Source: Halanaeroarchaeum sulfurireducens (GTDB lineage Archaea; Halobacteriota; Halobacteria; Halobacteriales; Halobacteriaceae). Taken from it: DNA of 64,000 nucleotides. The position numbers and the translations under genes were made by a program. Location of the stretch: positions 930,001 through 994,000 of the forward strand of contig NZ_CP008874.1 of assembly GCF_001011115.1 (NCBI RefSeq), given 5' to 3'. Positions 53,238-63,906 of this stretch are shown piece after piece. The notes under the pieces were generated by a model. That model was given only the letters and a program-made list of their open reading frames with translations, did not search any database and was not told the origin of the DNA. Position 1 is the stretch's first letter. Each line of letters opens with the position of its first letter.

Positions 53238-54605
53238 CTATGCCGTCCCCACGGAGGCAAGTTTCCCGTCGCCGGTACTCTGGTTTGTGCGCTCCTCGTT
53301 GGGACTGGCCCTCTCGGGAGAGTGTGGTATCTCCGACCAGTTGTGGTCGTCCCACTTGAGGCGCACGGGCCGTGCCATCGACCCGACTTCGGATTCGCCA
53401 GCCTGTCGTTCGAGGAACGTCCGCGAAGCGTCGAGGTCTGCGTGCCCTTCGTAGCCACACGAACACCGAAACACGTCGCCATCCCGCTCTGTATCGTCGC
53501 GCTCGCCACACACCGGGCACTCAACCGTCGTGTACGCTTCTGACTCGACTTCGACCGTGATGCCGTATTCCTCGGCCGTCGTCGCAAGCCGGTCGATGAA
53601 CGAGCGATACGCCCAGAACTGGTGGGTTTTCTCGTTCACGCGTGCCGACCAGTGTTCCGACAAGACATCGGTAAGATTGCCCACGTACACGGTGGCAACC
53701 CCGTCGCCGTACAGTCGTTCCATCAAGTGCCGCACGAGCGCGTCCTGTGCGTGGTCGCGTCGTCGTGTCCGCTTGCGGTACAGGCGTCGAATCCGGCGAC
53801 TGCTGTACCGTCCCTCGCGGAGTCGTCCGGAAGACTCCGTCTTCCGTGATTCCGAGAGACTTCGTCTCTCGGGCAATTTCGACTGCAAACGGGCAATCTC
53901 CTCGGTGGTTTCGCGGAAGCGGGCGAACAGGTCACAGCCTTCGTAGAGGTACTGCTGACCGGTTGTAGTCGTACAGGCGACGAGGTTGTTTGCGCCCACG
54001 TCCAAGGCAGCCGATTCCTCGGCTATTGGTAAATCCTGTCGAGAATCAGGTATAGTGACAGGCTGAAAGGCCCTGAACGTGCCGTCCACCTCGTCGTAGT
54101 ACAGCTCCAACCGACCCTGTTCGCCCTCCCATTTGGGGTCGCCAGCGACTTCGAGGCGCAGTCGGTCGTGGTAGCCAAGTCCATACTCGTCTTTCAAGTC
54201 TTGGCCAACTGGGATTTCCACCCGCGACCGTTCGCCGGTTTCGAGAGTGTACTGGTCGTTGCGGATGTACGTCCGCAACTCCCTGCCGTCGTCCTCGTTG
54301 CCCCAGTAGCCCGGAGGGGCGGTATCTTCGCCGTCTTCCCGGGCAGCGAAGAACGACCGCCACGCCTCGCCGTTCTTTCGGATGACTTGTTGGGCGGTGG
54401 CGGAGCCGAGAACGCCAACGTACCGTTTGCGGTAGTCGTCAGTATCCCACACGGAGTCGCTCTCGAAGAATTGCTGACGCCGTTCGTAGTTCAGTTCATT
54501 CCACAGGCTGGCGGAGGCGTCCAACAGGTCGCGGAGCAGTCGCTCGTCCTGTGTGGAGAGCGGTCGCACCGCGAACGTGTTGGTTCTCCTCACGACAACA
54601 GACAT
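53238..54605 (-). CDS. tnpB: TnpB-family protein, apparently lacking the RuvC-II Glu
   Basis: A 455-aa TnpB relative. RuvC-I Asp is in [14 protein letters not shown] and RuvC-III Asp in [15 protein letters not shown]. The segment that should supply the catalytic Glu reads [10 protein letters not shown], with Gly and Asn where the other two copies in this window have Glu-Asp or Glu-Glu. Nuclease activity may therefore be lost. The zinc finger CPVCGERDD...[11 protein letters not shown] is intact. An insertion of about 18 residues ([18 protein letters not shown]) near residue 250 is encoded by hairpins at 53828-53872. ATG 54605 is preferred over the frame start at 54638, which overlaps putative operator sites. 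Confidence 0.88.
53828..53872. repeat. Two trinucleotide-loop hairpins inside tnpB
   Basis: Perfect hairpins lie at 53828-53846 (CGGAAGAC, loop TCC) and 53852-53872 (CCGAGAGAC, loop TTC), starting 24 bp apart. They are translated within the TnpB frame between IARLQSKL and [15 protein letters not shown], two segments expected to be adjacent. Confidence 0.85.
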
Positions 54606-54638
54606 TTGTAGTTCTACGTCTAAATGTCTTTTGGACAT
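54601..54638. promoter_or_regulatory. GACAT half-sites in the tnpB/RHH divergent promoter
   Basis: GACAT occurs at 54601-54605 and 54634-54638, and the inverted ATGTC at 54624-54628. The first and second are arms of GACATTT...AAATGTC. They lie within the 38 bp separating the two start codons. Such half-sites are typical operators for ribbon-helix-helix proteins, so the small gene at 54644 may repress tnpB and itself. Confidence 0.4.
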
Positions 54639-55033: not shown

Positions 55034-56653
55034 CTACGGAGATGGTGGTGGAGTGAAGAACCGTCGTAACTCGCGGAGTACGTCTTTCGCCGTTATCGGT
55101 GGTGTATCGCTCGGCGGAATCCCAAGCGCCTGCCTGACGACTGCGTTCGTCAGAATGTAGACGTTGTACAACAGCATCGAGAACAGATAGTAGAACACCC
55201 GGACCGCATACGATTTCGATGTGGTCTTGGCCCGGAAGTCACCTGCGACCCGGAAACTTGTCTCGGAACCCCAGCGGTCCCTGTAGTCTTCGACGATCTG
55301 CTCTGCTGATTCTTGTGTGATGGCGCGGTTCGTGATGAACGCGATATGACTGTCATCTTCACTAATGCCGGCGGCGACGATACGGTTCACCTTCGTCTTC
55401 GCATATGGCTTCGTTTTCCGTTCCATGGTGGACCCCAGCTCGAAATTCACGTCCTTGTCTTCTGGGCGGTTTTCCCACAACTCTTTGGACTTCTTCGTTA
55501 TCTGCGCCCGGATGATGAACGGATAACCCGCCCTCTGTAGGTCTACAACCAACTGAGTGTCGTAGTAGCCGCGGTCCATGTACACCTGTTTGACGGTGAC
55601 GTGTTCTTCGGCACGCTCAATCAGGTCTAAAACGGATGCACGCATCTCTTCTCGGTTGGTGACCGGGACGACGCCGAGTGTGAACCGGCGGCCATGGTCG
55701 CCAACGATGCATATCGTGGCGAATTTGTATCCGTAACTTGTCCCCGCCTTTGGCTTGATGTTCGTCACCATCGGCAGGTTCCGGTCACCGTAAAATGGTA
55801 CTGCGTTTTCGTCGATTGCAAGGTCTACCGGCTTGTCGAATAGACCGTGCTCTTTGGCGACCTGGAAGAGCCGGTCATTCAGTTCGTCGAACAACGTGAA
55901 CAACTCGTCCGGGTCGAATTTCCGGAGATGATGAATGAGTGAGTCGCCGGTTGGTACCGATGGGTCATCTTCTTCGACGATGTCTGCAACTTCGTCTTTG
56001 AACCCTTCCGCGCCGTTGTTTGCAAAACTGTTCTCCAGGCCAAGGTGCGCGAGCAGGTCGAGATAATCGTTATCGGAATACCTCGTCGGTCCTTCTCGGT
56101 GAAGTTCAATCCCGCTGTACAGCCAGTCGCGTGTGTTCTGGAGTACTTCTTTGCGTTTTTGCTTTTTCCTCCGCTTTTTCGTCCGAGATGACTCGCCAGA
56201 TGGCGGGTCAGGTTCATACGCAGCTGTATCAAGCGGGAGCGCTTGGTCGTGAATGTATTCGACGATCTCCTCAGCTGCAGATTCGATGGTGTCGCGGGCT
56301 TCAGAGATGAAATACTCATTCCACCAACGCGACAGTACAGACCGGTCGGGTATCTGTGCAGGGTCGAACCCCAGCTTTCGTGCAGTGGAAGGAGTATCCT
56401 GGAGGCCATCACTGAGGTCCTGAATGAAGTCTAGCCCTCGGAGGTGACGGTACAGGTGTGCGCGAACCATTGACTCCGCACTGAACGGCGACCGGTCCCC
56501 GCCATCAATACCTTCGCGCACGATTGGTGAGACGTCGATGGATGTTGCGATTCGTACCGTATCGATATCTGATTCGTCTGCCTCATCGAGTAGCGCGGCT
56601 ACCTGCTGGCGAGCGTCCAGCCCGGGTAGCGTGGTCGATGAGGCGTCGTTCAT
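55034..56653 (-). CDS. IS4-like DDE transposase
   Basis: A 539-aa transposase of the DDE_Tnp_1/IS4-like type. The N-terminal part has FSAESMVRAHLYRHLRGLDFIQDLSDGLQ, common in haloarchaeal transposases. Catalytic residues can be placed at DLAIDENAVPFYG (first Asp), VYMDRGYYDTQLVV (second Asp) and EDYRDRWGSETSFRVAGDFRAKT (YREK-type helix with Glu). A basic stretch KKRRKKQKRKEV lies near residue 165. No inverted repeats or target duplication were found at its flanks. It may be a degraded element or an orphan. A palindrome TCCAATTTGGA follows 15 bp upstream of its ATG. Confidence 0.85.
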   Translation of the reverse strand: MNDASSTTLPGLDARQQVAALLDEADESDIDTVRIATSIDVSPIVREGIDGGDRSPFSAESMVRAHLYRHLRGLDFIQDLSDGLQDTPSTARKLGFDPAQIPDRSVLSRWWNEYFISEARDTIESAAEEIVEYIHDQALPLDTAAYEPDPPSGESSRTKKRRKKQKRKEVLQNTRDWLYSGIELHREGPTRYSDNDYLDLLAHLGLENSFANNGAEGFKDEVADIVEEDDPSVPTGDSLIHHLRKFDPDELFTLFDELNDRLFQVAKEHGLFDKPVDLAIDENAVPFYGDRNLPMVTNIKPKAGTSYGYKFATICIVGDHGRRFTLGVVPVTNREEMRASVLDLIERAEEHVTVKQVYMDRGYYDTQLVVDLQRAGYPFIIRAQITKKSKELWENRPEDKDVNFELGSTMERKTKPYAKTKVNRIVAAGISEDDSHIAFITNRAITQESAEQIVEDYRDRWGSETSFRVAGDFRAKTTSKSYAVRVFYYLFSMLLYNVYILTNAVVRQALGIPPSDTPPITAKDVLRELRRFFTPPPSP

Positions 56654-57516: not shown

Positions 57517-57526
57517 TTTATAAATA
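57517..57526 (+). promoter_or_regulatory. Strong TATA box of the QueC-like operon
   Basis: TTTATAAATA at 57517-57526 is centred 26-27 bp before ATG 57548, the classic spacing for a leaderless haloarchaeal mRNA. It supports this ATG, and thus the Met-Gly N-terminus, and shows that the three genes start a transcript here. Confidence 0.7.
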
Positions 57527-57547: not shown

Positions 57548-58021
57548 ATGGGTAGTGCTACACGCACCCGCTCCCCCAGCAGCCAGGCTGGGTACGATGA
57601 TGCAAAAGAGTTGATGCAGGAAGCCGCCGAGTCGGGTCATGCGCAAGCGGCTGTTGATGTTGGTGTGAAAGCCGCATTAGCTGTGCAACCAAATGGGCCC
57701 TCAAAGTATCTCATATACACGTATACTAAGCATACAGCAAAACTGGTCCAGGAAAGCCAGAAAAACGGGGTCGAATCAGGCATCAAAGCGGTGGGACAAG
57801 ACATTGTCACATCAGAGTTAGCCGGGGCTGCCGGGGACGAGTTAGTCAATGAAGCACAGAATGCTGTTTCGCAAGCTGCCCAAGAAGATATTGTGAAACA
57901 AGGTACCAGTGGCGCGAATAAAAATCTCTCAAACCCAGTGGAGATGGCCACCAAAGCAGCGATTTCCGAAACTATGAGTCAGGGCGCTAATGCCCTAATT
58001 ACGGATACTGACGATGAGTGA
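57548..58021 (+). CDS. Small Met-Gly-starting protein of the QueC-like operon
   Basis: A 157-aa protein with no recognised family. It begins MGSATRTRSPSSQ, a flexible Ser/Arg-rich start in which Met removal would expose Gly2. The rest is Ala-rich and helical, with amphipathic stretches such as YDDAKELMQEAAESGHAQAAVDVGVKAALAV and a C-terminal Ala/Gly/Thr-rich part. The next gene starts 8 bp before its stop and the third follows in the same overlapping way. In QueC-like conjugation systems, a partner protein with an exposed N-terminal glycine can be the target; this gene is the obvious candidate here. That is inference from position and N-terminus only. Confidence 0.75.
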   Translation: MGSATRTRSPSSQAGYDDAKELMQEAAESGHAQAAVDVGVKAALAVQPNGPSKYLIYTYTKHTAKLVQESQKNGVESGIKAVGQDIVTSELAGAAGDELVNEAQNAVSQAAQEDIVKQGTSGANKNLSNPVEMATKAAISETMSQGANALITDTDDE

Positions 58022-58439
58022 AGACGACACTACCCGGAAACAAGAAGAAAATATCAGAAGTTTCTTAGATGAGCATGGGCAGGAAGGTCTGTACGTCCTG
58101 ATTTTCCGCAATCTAATTTATCGATTCGTGATCCAAGAGCTGAAATCTCCACCAGAATCCGATGATGGTGATTTTGTAAGTATATTTCGGCAAGGTGACC
58201 CTGAGACAATCCAATCCCTAAAGAACGATATTCGAGAAAGAAGTGAGCATTGGGCGCGAGACCTTGTCTCTGGGCTAAAAGATGATGGTGAATTGGACGG
58301 GCTGTTCGAGTTGGAAGGTGGTCAAGATCTCGAAGTTGACTCAGACCGCTTCCAACACGCTATTCATGAGAAATTTATCGAGTGGCATGAGGATAGTGAT
58401 GACATAGTACAGGAGGTTAGAGAAGAATATGACTTCTAA
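58014..58439 (+). CDS. Uncharacterised protein of the QueC-like operon
   Basis: A 141-aa protein, acidic and helical, with no membrane segment. A hydrophobic helix GLYVLIFRNLIYRFVIQEL sits near residues 25-43. Ends are acidic, with Asp/Glu-rich C-terminus. No family is recognised. It overlaps the previous gene by 8 bp and the next by 11 bp, so the three proteins are probably made in fixed ratios and act together. Confidence 0.7.
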   Translation: MSEDDTTRKQEENIRSFLDEHGQEGLYVLIFRNLIYRFVIQELKSPPESDDGDFVSIFRQGDPETIQSLKNDIRERSEHWARDLVSGLKDDGELDGLFELEGGQDLEVDSDRFQHAIHEKFIEWHEDSDDIVQEVREEYDF

Positions 58440-59892
58440 ATTTTATGTCTGGCGAAGCAGGCATTCAGATAAACGACTCGTCGGTGGGTTAGATGAGAGT
58501 ATTGTCGACAAACATGATCATGAGGACTTAGCCTCAGTTATTGACTACGGTTCAGAGTCCCGCAATGCACGAGCCAAAGTTGGAGTCGAAGTTGGACTCG
58601 ACCTAGAGCGGCTGGCAACAATTTTTCCAGACCGGATACCCGACCTAATTTTAGACCTAGCCGAGATCGCGGCAGTTACATTTGCAATCGACAAGTCCGT
58701 TAATCGGGCAGTCGACGTCAGCGGAAATCCCGAAATTGACAGGGTTAACACGCGCAATATCAATATCCAAGTCCCGGTTCTTTCCAAGAAGCTTGCCACC
58801 GAGGAGGCTGAATCAATCGTCTCTGAAATTGTTTCACATGCTACGCGAGATATTATTGACTTCGACTTCATACATCATCCGCCCAAATCACCCACAATAA
58901 TCCCACCTTCTGGAGATCAATCGAAGCAAGCGGTGAGTTTGTTATCGGATGGGATTGACAGTACTGCTGGCGTATTCTACAACGAAAAAAGAGATATCGA
59001 CTCAAAATATGTCACTTTGAAATATACGAATGGTGTTGTGCCCACAGTCAATGAAGTCAGCAATGAGTTGGTAATTGACCCACATGTTTTTCGGATAAAT
59101 CTCAATAGAGGGGGCGAATTTACCGAGTTCTCACGTGGTTTCCTACATTTCACATACGGGTTAATTGCCGCTATTGCTTCTGGAGCAAGCAAGGTCCAAA
59201 GCTTCGAGAACGGAGTTGCAGCACGATTTTTAATTCTTCAAGATGGATGGATGACAACACGAACAGTCTCGCCATTCCTCATTGGCCATTTCAATACGTT
59301 CACTGATCGGGTTCTTGACCAACAGATAGAATTCACAAATCCGTTTGAACACTTGACCAAGACTGATATTTTAAACATCATCCCAGAATCCCACACGGGG
59401 ATTGTGAAAAAGACAGTATCCTGTCCTCACAGTAGCAATTATAACTTTGCCGACCAAAGCAACTGTAACATTTGCATCCCCTGTATTCTTCGAACAATTG
59501 GAATTCTAAATAGCCATCACGACATCTTCATTGATGAGATGGGCGTATGCAACTCATTTACAACGGCTGATTTCACGTCTTTCGAATTCCCTCCAAATGG
59601 CCAAGTCCACAAGACGTTCGGAAAAGCAGCCAGAAAAAACGATGAGGCGAATAGCCCAAGCGCATACCTTGATGGTATGGCCGAGATTGCGTATTTCTCT
59701 CGGTTAATTTTGACTGAAGACAAAGCGACGGTTCGCTCGGAATATCCATCGATGTATCCAGACGAAGTATATGAACAGCACAAACGATTTGCCCAATATT
59801 TCAATACTGCAATGAGAGAACTCCAAGACAGAAATCCCACAACAGATGCAATAACAGTCGATACAACGCGTTTAGCCCCAGAGTCATCCTGA
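58429..59892 (+). CDS. QueC-like PP-loop enzyme with zinc-binding site
   Basis: A 487-aa enzyme with a C-terminal QueC-like ATP pyrophosphatase domain. The PP-loop is SLLSDGIDSTAGV (residues about 170-182), with Asp in place of the first Gly of SGGxDS. A zinc site C332-C346-C349-C352 (C-x13-C-x2-C-x2-C) matches the QueC/QatC pattern. The N-terminal 165 residues are extra and predicted alpha/beta; QueC itself is only about 230 aa. In Qat and type IV CBASS, QueC-like proteins serve defence. The other Qat parts (KAP-type QatA, TatD-like QatD) are not in this window. The coding sequence is low in GC, pointing to transfer. The stop overlaps the convergent Orc1/Cdc6 gene by 9 bp. Confidence 0.85.
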   Translation: MTSKFYVWRSRHSDKRLVGGLDESIVDKHDHEDLASVIDYGSESRNARAKVGVEVGLDLERLATIFPDRIPDLILDLAEIAAVTFAIDKSVNRAVDVSGNPEIDRVNTRNINIQVPVLSKKLATEEAESIVSEIVSHATRDIIDFDFIHHPPKSPTIIPPSGDQSKQAVSLLSDGIDSTAGVFYNEKRDIDSKYVTLKYTNGVVPTVNEVSNELVIDPHVFRINLNRGGEFTEFSRGFLHFTYGLIAAIASGASKVQSFENGVAARFLILQDGWMTTRTVSPFLIGHFNTFTDRVLDQQIEFTNPFEHLTKTDILNIIPESHTGIVKKTVSCPHSSNYNFADQSNCNICIPCILRTIGILNSHHDIFIDEMGVCNSFTTADFTSFEFPPNGQVHKTFGKAARKNDEANSPSAYLDGMAEIAYFSRLILTEDKATVRSEYPSMYPDEVYEQHKRFAQYFNTAMRELQDRNPTTDAITVDTTRLAPESS

Positions 59893-60955: not shown

Positions 60956-61113
60956 GGATTTCGGGGGTGTCGAGTGTTTGCAGACCTTTAAGGCAAACAA
61001 AGGATTACCACGTTAGTAAGAGCCTATGACACATCGAAGAAATACTCTTTGCGTGATGATGGGCAAGAATTCGCCCTCTGGACCATCTGTCGTCTTTGGG
61101 CAAGAGGGATACA

Positions 61114-63906
61114 ATGACTGAAAAAGTGATTTCGGATTTCATCACCCCAAGCGAGGAGATCACCACTGCAGATGGTGAAATTAGTTCAGCGGGACTTCTT
61201 GACGAAGTCAACCTTTACAATCTCTATGACGACCGTGAGTCCCCTGAGCAAAATGCTCAACGCATCCTCGAAATCACCTACCCAACAGAAACCCTCACCA
61301 CCATCATCAAAAATACTGCTCGCACGCTCAATGGTGATGATGAATTCACCGAAGGTGGTCAAATCATTGGTGGCGGATATGGAAGCGGGAAAAGTCACAT
61401 CGAACTAGTCATCTACCACCTTTTCAACTCTCCTTCCATCGGCCAAGACTGGCTCGACCAGCAAGGTATCGAAGCCACTCTACCAGATAGTACTCGGGCT
61501 GCCGCTCTCCAGATGTTTAATTTGGACACGGAGTACAACCTCCTCTCAGAAGCAGTCGCGGACCATCTCGGAATTGAGACATGGGAAGGCGACACCCGCC
61601 TCCCAACTGTCCACCAGATTCGAGACACACTCGAAGGGGTGCCCACGCTCGTTCTGCTGGACGAATTCGAGCGATGGTTCGGGATGGCTGACAGAGCCGA
61701 ATATCGAGAGGACAATAAAGCGTTCCTCCAGAATCTACTCGAAGCCGCCGGACGCGATGACACGCAACTTAGTGTCTTTCTCTCGCTACTTTACGAAAAC
61801 GATGATGTCCAGGCAGTCGCGCAGCGGACAAACCCATTTACGTACGATCTTTCCTCCCGCCGGGACGAGAAGATTGATTTTCTGCTTCACCGACTAGTCG
61901 GGTCCGTAGACGACCCACCGGGGATCGGTGATCTGGCCAAAGAGTATACCAACGTCTACCGGCAAAACGACCAAATCCAACTCGAAGACTACCAACACTT
62001 CCAGGACCGTATCGAGAGGTACTATCCATTCCATCCAATGGCGTTGGACCTGTTGATGGAGAAGTATTCTGAACAGCGCATCAGTTCCGATGCTCGTGGA
62101 CTTCTCAAGTTCCTCACCCAGATTCTTGCAGACACATATTCGAATGTCGATTTGATCCTAACTGGCGATATCGATGTATTCGATTACGCCGATCGCTTCC
62201 AGTACATCGACAACGAACTCGTTGGAAAGTACATTAATGACTATCACCGCCTCCAGAATTCGGACGATTCCTTCGACGAGTACATTGAGGAACTTATCAA
62301 CATCGTCTTGCTTCATAGTCTCGCCCGGGCGGGCGAAGAGGGCGCAAATAAACGACAGATTCTGATGGGGACGATGCGGAAAGGTATTAACGCCCATCGT
62401 ATAATTCAGACATTCCGAGAAGATGTCTACGGCCATGCCTGGCACATCCATCGAATCAATGGCGAGTACGCCTTCGATACTGATGAGAACCCTGCCGCTC
62501 GGATAGAAAAGAAAGCCGAAGATATCCATAAACACGATGCGATCCACCGCGTCGAATCACTCGTTCGAAGGGGCCTCTTCGACAACCACAACAATGTTTA
62601 CATTCTGGACCCAGTGAATACTGAACAAGATATTCCGGACAACAAGGCGTTAAAAATCGTCGTGATGCTAAATGCAAAGGAGAGTTACGATGAAGAATTC
62701 AAGGCTCTAACGACTGGACAAGAGCGAGAGTTCCACAACACGCTGGCATTAGTTACTCCAGGAAAGCGGTCTAGTATCGATAATAACACGGGCATTATCG
62801 AGCTGGCTCGGAAAGTCGTCGCCGGAGAACAGTTGGACCGAGAGGAAGAGGTTCTTCCAGAGGGATTCAAGGAAATCCACGAACAGAACAAACAGAACCT
62901 CCACGACAGGGTGAGAGACAAATTCGGCACAGTTCATCGTTCGACCGGTCGAGGATTGTATCCCGAAGACCTCCCCAACGGCGACCACGTCGATTTCTAC
63001 GACGCCACAATCGACATCGTCAAACCGGACTACAGTCACCTGAAATCAGAAGTCGAAGACGCTATCGAAGACGCGGGTGCGGGCGGAATCCAGTATGAGC
63101 ACCTCCGGAACGATTTCTACCGGAACACCGAATACCCGACCCTTACAGGCGACGACGAACTGGAAGACGCTCTTGACGACTTGTGCCGTGATGGGGCCAT
63201 CAAAGCCGGGAACTACTTCGAAGAACGGTTACCCAATGTCGGGAATGACACAAATCTCGTCCACGAAAAATACGTCGAAGAAGACGATGAAGATGACGAA
63301 ACAGCCGAGATAACCATCGATACGACAGGGGTAACTAGTGCGGGTGACGAGTTAGATGGGGACAGTACCACCGGTTCTCCAACTGCGACTGAAGGTGGGA
63401 GTGGCGGTGATAGTGGTGTCCTCGAATGTCCGCAATGTAGGCGAGAATTGATCGGAAACACCTGCGAGTGTGGCTTCGAATTCGATGCGAGCGACGTGAA
63501 AGAGGGTAAGGTAACAGTCGAGGGCGCGACAACTAATGAGATTCTCGACGAATTCGGCCTGGACAATGAGCCGTCTGGGCCGAAGACACAATCCGTCCCG
63601 ATCATGGGCACGCTAGAGGCGGACAACAAGCCCGATATGATCGACACGCTGGAACGGAAAATCGGAATAGAGTGGGACATTCACACTGCAACAATCACCG
63701 TCGAGGGAACGCTAACGACCGAAGACCTCGAACACTATGGAATCGCGGCTGAGGCCCTCAATGAGAAGGTTTCAGTCAATGAGACGTTCGAAGTCGAGCC
63801 TGACGAACCCTTCTCCAGGCAGTCATTCCTCAGCCTGGTTTGGGATTTAAATGTGCCTGAACACGCCTCACTCGACGTCAGCATGCAGGTGGATAAAAAT
63901 GAGTAA
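61114..63906 (+). CDS. Large P-loop ATPase, BrxC/DUF499-like, probable defence component
   Basis: A 930-aa protein. The Walker A-like loop GGGYGSGKSH is near residues 86-95 and Walker B VLLDEFERWF near 180-190. The ITYPTETL segment before Walker A resembles the DUF499 group, while YGSGKSH is like BrxC of BREX. The middle is helical, about 760-790 contains a zinc ribbon (CPQCRREL...CECGFEF), and the C-terminus has beta-rich repeats. Proteins of this kind sense or process phage DNA in several systems. ATG 61114 follows GAGGG; a TTG at 61096 would add six residues. It is divergent from Orc1/Cdc6 and overlaps the next gene by 8 bp. Confidence 0.75.
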   Translation: MTEKVISDFITPSEEITTADGEISSAGLLDEVNLYNLYDDRESPEQNAQRILEITYPTETLTTIIKNTARTLNGDDEFTEGGQIIGGGYGSGKSHIELVIYHLFNSPSIGQDWLDQQGIEATLPDSTRAAALQMFNLDTEYNLLSEAVADHLGIETWEGDTRLPTVHQIRDTLEGVPTLVLLDEFERWFGMADRAEYREDNKAFLQNLLEAAGRDDTQLSVFLSLLYENDDVQAVAQRTNPFTYDLSSRRDEKIDFLLHRLVGSVDDPPGIGDLAKEYTNVYRQNDQIQLEDYQHFQDRIERYYPFHPMALDLLMEKYSEQRISSDARGLLKFLTQILADTYSNVDLILTGDIDVFDYADRFQYIDNELVGKYINDYHRLQNSDDSFDEYIEELINIVLLHSLARAGEEGANKRQILMGTMRKGINAHRIIQTFREDVYGHAWHIHRINGEYAFDTDENPAARIEKKAEDIHKHDAIHRVESLVRRGLFDNHNNVYILDPVNTEQDIPDNKALKIVVMLNAKESYDEEFKALTTGQEREFHNTLALVTPGKRSSIDNNTGIIELARKVVAGEQLDREEEVLPEGFKEIHEQNKQNLHDRVRDKFGTVHRSTGRGLYPEDLPNGDHVDFYDATIDIVKPDYSHLKSEVEDAIEDAGAGGIQYEHLRNDFYRNTEYPTLTGDDELEDALDDLCRDGAIKAGNYFEERLPNVGNDTNLVHEKYVEEDDEDDETAEITIDTTGVTSAGDELDGDSTTGSPTATEGGSGGDSGVLECPQCRRELIGNTCECGFEFDASDVKEGKVTVEGATTNEILDEFGLDNEPSGPKTQSVPIMGTLEADNKPDMIDTLERKIGIEWDIHTATITVEGTLTTEDLEHYGIAAEALNEKVSVNETFEVEPDEPFSRQSFLSLVWDLNVPEHASLDVSMQVDKNE

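Follow-up and report, generated by a model that had tools for sequence, protein, structure and literature searches.

The closest described relatives of the genes considered here belong to two defence systems, QatABCD and type IV CBASS, each of which includes an enzyme of the QueC family. In the Qat report (PMC13279940), bacterial QatB is described as starting with MGTS on a disordered tail that is followed by a helical body, QatBC alone is found to protect E. coli from lambda, and the identity of the group that QatC attaches to QatB is named as a key open question. The base conjugated by Cap9 of type IV CBASS is CDG, a 7-deazaguanine, which is placed on an N-terminal glycine (PMC13279940). A survey of the QueC family assigned QatC to a cluster that is mostly bacterial, and it left small archaeal clusters unanalysed (PMC13329287). 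Here, a three-gene operon, g1-g2-g3, was analysed in a window of 64,000 nucleotides (C1:930001-994000) from the 2.2 Mb, 99.9% complete chromosome of the haloarchaeon Halanaeroarchaeum sulfurireducens (genome G000). It was judged reasonably likely that this operon is a QatBC-type antiviral module of archaea that lacks both QatA and QatD, in which g3 would modify Gly2 of g1, probably with a group other than CDG.

57548-58021, + strand: g1, 157 amino acids, starting MGSATRTRS (open reading frame MGSATRTRSP...); putative substrate protein with Gly2 as the candidate modified residue, possibly the front half of a split QatB.
58014-58439, + strand: g2, 141 amino acids, helical and acidic; conserved partner gene, possibly the QatB C-terminal body.
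58429-59892, + strand: g3, 487 amino acids; predicted QatC-clade ATP-pyrophosphatase-type enzyme.
57517-57524, + strand: TATA box TTTATAAA, 24-31 bases before the first ATG, recognized from the sequence.

The order g1-g2-g3 was identical in every complete copy found, that is, in about a dozen haloarchaea and two methanogen-class genomes. The haloarchaeal carriers included Natrinema sp. DC36 (two plasmids), Halobiforma lacisalsi, Halolamina CBA1230, Halosimplex salinum, Halapricum CBA1109, Haloarcula vallismortis and further genomes. Among 394 sampled Halobacteria, g3 was present in 13 genomes (10 genera, 4 families), and g1 was present in exactly 11 of the 394, namely those with an uncut g3, and nowhere without g3; two copies (L036 in G158 and L037 in G168) were cut by contig ends. 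The identity across the haloarchaeal subfamilies was 33-45% for g1, as compared with the g1 of the window, and 26-41% for g3. Since the trio recurred in a fixed order at such low identity, also in genome G823, whose copy came to light once the models were complete, the operon was considered to be more than a chance arrangement. Thus, the small genes did not prove unrelated elsewhere, and g1 and g2 are constant genetic partners of g3. The Met-Gly start, which a sequence-only reading of this DNA had pointed out for the first protein, was found as MG[ST] in every copy of g1, the methanogens included, the background rate being about 4% of the open reading frames of at least 150 amino acids in these loci, g1 copies included. 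No relative of g3 was found in the viral contigs searched.

Several copies showed features of their own. In Natrinema salinisoli (L007, 5523-5744), a stop codon was located inside g2 with g1 and g3 intact, as in a decaying copy. The two plasmids of Natrinema sp. DC36 carried nearly identical operons (L005 and L006, 7101-9434) with an identical g1. In the methanogen-class g1 (L042 9690-10139, - strand; L094 8038-8490), the hydrophobic stretch FFAIAVAAILLIAIL occupied the place of the conserved haloarchaeal QPNG segment, and it is possible that this stretch contacts a membrane.

The third gene had been called QueC-like from the sequence alone, which was correct, and the assignment was sharpened to QatC-like by family libraries, QatC structures and profile comparison. 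NCBIfam QatC was the first-ranked family for g3 (88.6 bits, E 4e-25) and the PADLOC QatC model matched at 8e-23, when the match to the canonical QueC models of the family libraries was much weaker. The solved QatC chains 9vlk and 9zee matched g3 at 2-4e-8, and a profile-profile comparison of the archaeal g3 with 15 bacterial QatC resulted in an E value of 2.7e-40. A tree built from the PP-loop cores united the haloarchaeal g3 in one clade (99/92) beside bacterial QatC (83/91), with canonical QueC separate, so that g3 did not group with housekeeping QueC; the two methanogen g3 were on a long branch of uncertain placement. The following motifs were located by alignment, and the PP-loop LLSDGIDST and the four-cysteine site of the sequence-only reading were found to be present and conserved.

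58945-58962, + strand: PP-loop SDGIDS, g3 residues 173-178, within LLSDGIDST; SGG in bacterial QatC.
59206-59214, + strand: ENG motif, g3 residues 260-262.
59257-59265, + strand: TRT motif, g3 residues 277-279, with the two threonines that QatC has in place of the Tyr/Asp pair binding CDG in QueC and Cap9.
59422-59484, + strand: Cys4 zinc site, g3 residues C332, C346, C349 and C352, conserved.

A joint alignment demonstrated that the archaeal g3 proteins retain the marks of QatC, namely ENG, TRT, NP[FY] or TPF followed by TK, and Cys4, the late-found G823 copy having ETG where the others have ENG. The PP-loop was SDG in the subfamily of the window, SEG in the methanogens, and SGG in bacterial QatC and a second haloarchaeal subfamily. 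Thr/Thr replaced Tyr/Asp in all archaeal members. In P. aeruginosa QatC, the corresponding residues T278 and T280 stand in place of the Tyr/Asp by which QueC and Cap9 hold CDG, and mutation of these residues, including T278Y/T280D, is reported to abolish Qat defence (PMC13279940). As judged from these comparisons, g3 is an enzyme of the ATP-pyrophosphatase type within the QatC clade, distantly homologous to QatC and sharing its remodelled active site.

Canonical QueC shares with g3 the PP-loop Rossmann core, the zinc Cys4 site and a score above the Pfam PF06508 cut-off; however, it is a protein of about 220 amino acids from a separate clade, and its catalytic motifs were missing from g3 in the alignment. 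The idea that g3 stands in for housekeeping QueC in archaeosine synthesis was considered very improbable: although g3 is the sole QueC-like gene of G000, where the remaining PF06508 matches are weak and lie in ArgG (argininosuccinate synthase) and NadE (NAD synthase), the same genome lacks QueD and QueE, so that there would be no CDG to convert, canonical QueC is present besides g3 in seven other carriers, and bacterial QatC fails to complement queC (PMC13329287).

The supply of CDG was surveyed in 14 carriers by using the NCBIfam QueC and QueE models and by searching with the QueE and QueD sequences of Natrinema. The synthesis of CDG requires QueD and QueE. QueD, QueE and canonical QueC were all missing in seven of the 14 carriers (G000, G089, G140, G158, G221, G327 and G328), and all three were found in G067, G101, G126, G156, G168, G383 and G590. 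The QueE search works and the absence of QueE is not rare, because QueE was found in 283 of the 394 sampled Halobacteria and was missing in 111. An excess of QueE-less carriers is suggested by its presence in 6 of 13 carriers versus 283 of 394 genomes (Fisher p 0.055), though such an excess is not claimed here. Archaeosine transglycosylase was kept in all 15 genomes checked, the CDG-less carriers included, hence these hosts presumably salvage preQ0.

QueE-less haloarchaea are common, and G000, which is also without QueD and QueC, has the archaeosine transglycosylase nonetheless, suggesting a reliance on salvaged preQ0. In G328, which has neither QueD nor QueE, one QueC-like open reading frame of 218 amino acids (C1:388243-388791, - strand) did not reach the QueC threshold.

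The 7-deazaguanine attachment that the sequence-only reading had given as published for both systems has been shown for Cap9 and proposed for QatC (PMC13279940). Its transfer to the present operon was not supported, since the biosynthetic genes were missing from G000 and from six of the 13 other carriers, which makes CDG an unlikely tag. A module of the same kind that attaches CDG as in type IV CBASS, with the CDG-less carriers either importing CDG or holding inactive operons, was regarded as unlikely. Such a module would follow the precedent of Cap9, could draw on QueD, QueE and QueC in seven carriers and, given the archaeosine transglycosylase kept by the others, on some salvaged 7-deazaguanine, but six of the seven carriers without the pathway have complete, uninterrupted operons, the CDG-holding Tyr/Asp were Thr/Thr in all archaeal members, T278Y/T280D abolishes Qat defence (PMC13279940), and salvage is known for preQ0, a nitrile that has no carboxylate to activate. 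Host-made CDG is an unlikely substrate because half of the carriers are without the pathway, the operons are complete in six of these seven, and the site is Thr/Thr; the tag in the carriers is probably something other than CDG.

Both small proteins had been unrecognizable from the sequence alone. Here, they proved not entirely so: g1 has a QatB-like MG[ST] start, and g2 weakly resembles the C-terminal domain of QatB. A profile of g1 fused to g2 could be aligned with QatB in collinear order over the junction of the two genes, with a score of 35.3 (P 3e-4) and chiefly through g2, when all 160 shuffle controls of QatB stayed lower (maximum 22.1 in 80 column shuffles and 26.2 in 80 block shuffles). 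A QatB hidden Markov model run over 1,360 open reading frames of these loci placed 11 of 12 g2 genes within the top 19, and the reversed g2 sequences were lower. The comparison of g1 alone with QatB was not significant, as 4 of 80 block shuffles were equally high, the QatB models of the family libraries matched neither g1 nor g2, and a PDB sequence search with the g1 and g2 profiles gave no credible match. The AlphaFold2 (AF2) model of g1 was unusable (pLDDT 41), and that of g2 consisted of three helices (pLDDT 73); a PDB fold search with the g2 model gave no match, the presence of QatB chains in that PDB set being unchecked. It was proposed that QatB is probably split into two genes, g1 and g2. 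In a Rhodococcus plasmid qat operon (L049, 3717-4624), the qatB position was annotated as two short open reading frames, which may reflect a frameshift, incorrectly annotated starts or a further case of split QatB.

It was also considered whether g3, within a defence or mobile-element module, acts otherwise, for example by adenylating or thiolating a small molecule or by modifying a viral target, with the MG start of g1 being incidental. This was rated as quite unlikely: the reaction of QatC is reported as not yet reconstituted (PMC13279940), the SDG/SEG PP-loop is unusual, and the tail of g1 is far shorter than the 30-90 residues of QatB, but MG[ST] is retained in g1 at an otherwise 33-45% identity and in the methanogens, and the G2D change of bacterial QatB abolishes defence (PMC13279940).

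Several points weigh against an archaeal QatBC-type module that modifies g1. The NCBIfam QatC score of g3 was far under the equivalog cut-off (88.6 vs 280 bits), and its SDG PP-loop deviates from the SGG of QatC. The similarity of g2 to QatB was weak in the profile comparison, the g2 of the window itself gave no score in the QatB scan of the 1,360 open reading frames, the reciprocal search of archaeal g2 against bacterial open reading frames was not significant, and the likeness was left unconfirmed by the AF2 model and the fold search. The split of QatB is held at moderate confidence because of the reciprocal search and is called probable rather than shown because of all three of these results, the silent window g2, the reciprocal search and the unhelpful structure. 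Furthermore, the CDG-less hosts might take up CDG or keep idle operons.

From the gene sequences we infer a course of events that comprises methionine removal, complex formation, modification with its chemistry, and defence. Met1 of g1 would be removed and Gly2 thereby exposed on a short flexible tail, which g2, alone or with the remainder of g1, would hold in the active site of g3 as a QatB-like body. The g3 enzyme would then activate a carboxylate by using ATP and couple it to the amine of Gly2 in g1, the attached group probably being a non-CDG carboxylate present in all hosts, and the modified g1 complex would limit virus growth. That a module can function in the absence of A and D is shown by QatBC, which defends E. 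coli by itself. On a more tentative note, the addition of a non-7-deazaguanine group to the N-terminal glycine of g1, by an enzyme of the QatC type together with a QatB function divided between two genes, may constitute an undescribed protein modification.

The absence of the classic qatA and qatD genes, which had already been noted, was confirmed: about 1,800 open reading frames of the archaeal loci gave no match to QatA or QatD at E<=1, and the bacterial control was positive. With QatABCD, the archaeal operon shares an enzyme of the QatC clade that is extended at both its N- and C-terminus, the TRT threonines and Cys4, an MG[ST]-starting partner encoded just upstream, overlapping genes, and a location in defence islands and plasmids. 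It differs by being without QatA (a KAP-family ATPase) and QatD (a TatD-family nuclease), by having the weakly QatB-like g1 and g2 in the position of QatB, by the SDG or SEG PP-loop in part of the archaeal family, and by its archaeal hosts, half of those checked being without the CDG pathway. By these sequence features, the operon resembles the QatBC core but falls outside the qatABCD definition, as A and D are absent and B appears to be in two pieces. With type IV CBASS, it shares a QueC-family enzyme next to a Met-Gly-starting protein and a proposed ATP-dependent N-terminal conjugation. Unlike that system, the operon of the window has no CD-NTase (the one found after g3 elsewhere starts MISRAKLN, not MG), no Cap10 was identified, and Cap9 is a protein of about 185 amino acids that retains the CDG-binding Tyr/Asp, whereas g3 has TRT. 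No description of an archaeal Qat-like operon was found in the open literature searched, subscription papers being mostly outside that search. The suggestion of an undescribed branch is supported.

The three genes, all on the + strand between 57548 and 59892, overlap by 8 bp (g1/g2) and 11 bp (g2/g3), in agreement with the sequence-only reading, as are the TATA box and the lower GC content (51, 44 and 44% for g1, g2 and g3 vs 60% in window positions 1-53000). The TATA box is probably the single promoter of the operon, with the spacing of a leaderless archaeal transcript, and the relatives have a TATA-like element before g1 at a comparable distance. Upstream of the operon, a winged-helix gene and an ISH3/IS4-type transposase were located; the mobile genes just upstream are an IS605-type OrfB/TnpB (53238-54638, - strand) and the ISH3/IS4-type transposase (55034-56653, - strand). 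The downstream side has a convergent Orc1/Cdc6 gene and a DUF499 - PglZ-domain - DUF1156 methylase - Cas4-like cluster. In the window (61096-63906) and in L039 (67-5004), these are consecutive genes for a DUF499 ATPase (HmaC/BrxC-like), a short PglZ-domain protein, a DUF1156 adenine methylase (HmaB/PglXI-like) and a Cas4-like PD-(D/E)XK nuclease, and by their predicted domains they form a second, Hma/BREX-like defence module adjoining the operon.

Defence genes often adjoined g1-g2-g3 in other loci as well, including IetA (L005), an Mrr-type nuclease (L008, L034), ThsB TIR proteins (L034), TmtA (L013) and an Avs1b-like protein (L032); L010 contained an integrase and conjugation-type ATPases. 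Because the neighbours vary between the copies, the unit was defined as g1-g2-g3 within defence islands or mobile elements. A CD-NTase gene was found about 67 bp downstream of g3 on the same strand in L013 (9535), L033 (10168), L030 (8559, - strand) and L012 (9426, by its start), and in L013, L030 and L033 it was followed by a gene for a small membrane protein and by another, similar-looking pair of genes in convergent orientation. Possibly, a CBASS was inserted next to the module or shares one transcript with it. A functional link to the CD-NTase was set aside, as the four loci are closely related, the CD-NTase does not begin with MG, and it is absent from the other loci.

With these operons, the QatC clade reaches into the archaea, and they provide biochemistry with a compact form of three proteins. 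Their occurrence in hosts without QueD, QueE and QueC makes the question of the QatC tag directly testable: if the modification or the defence works in CDG-less hosts, host-made CDG would be excluded as the tag. If the proposed modification is true, the naturally CDG-free haloarchaea would be the place to identify it.
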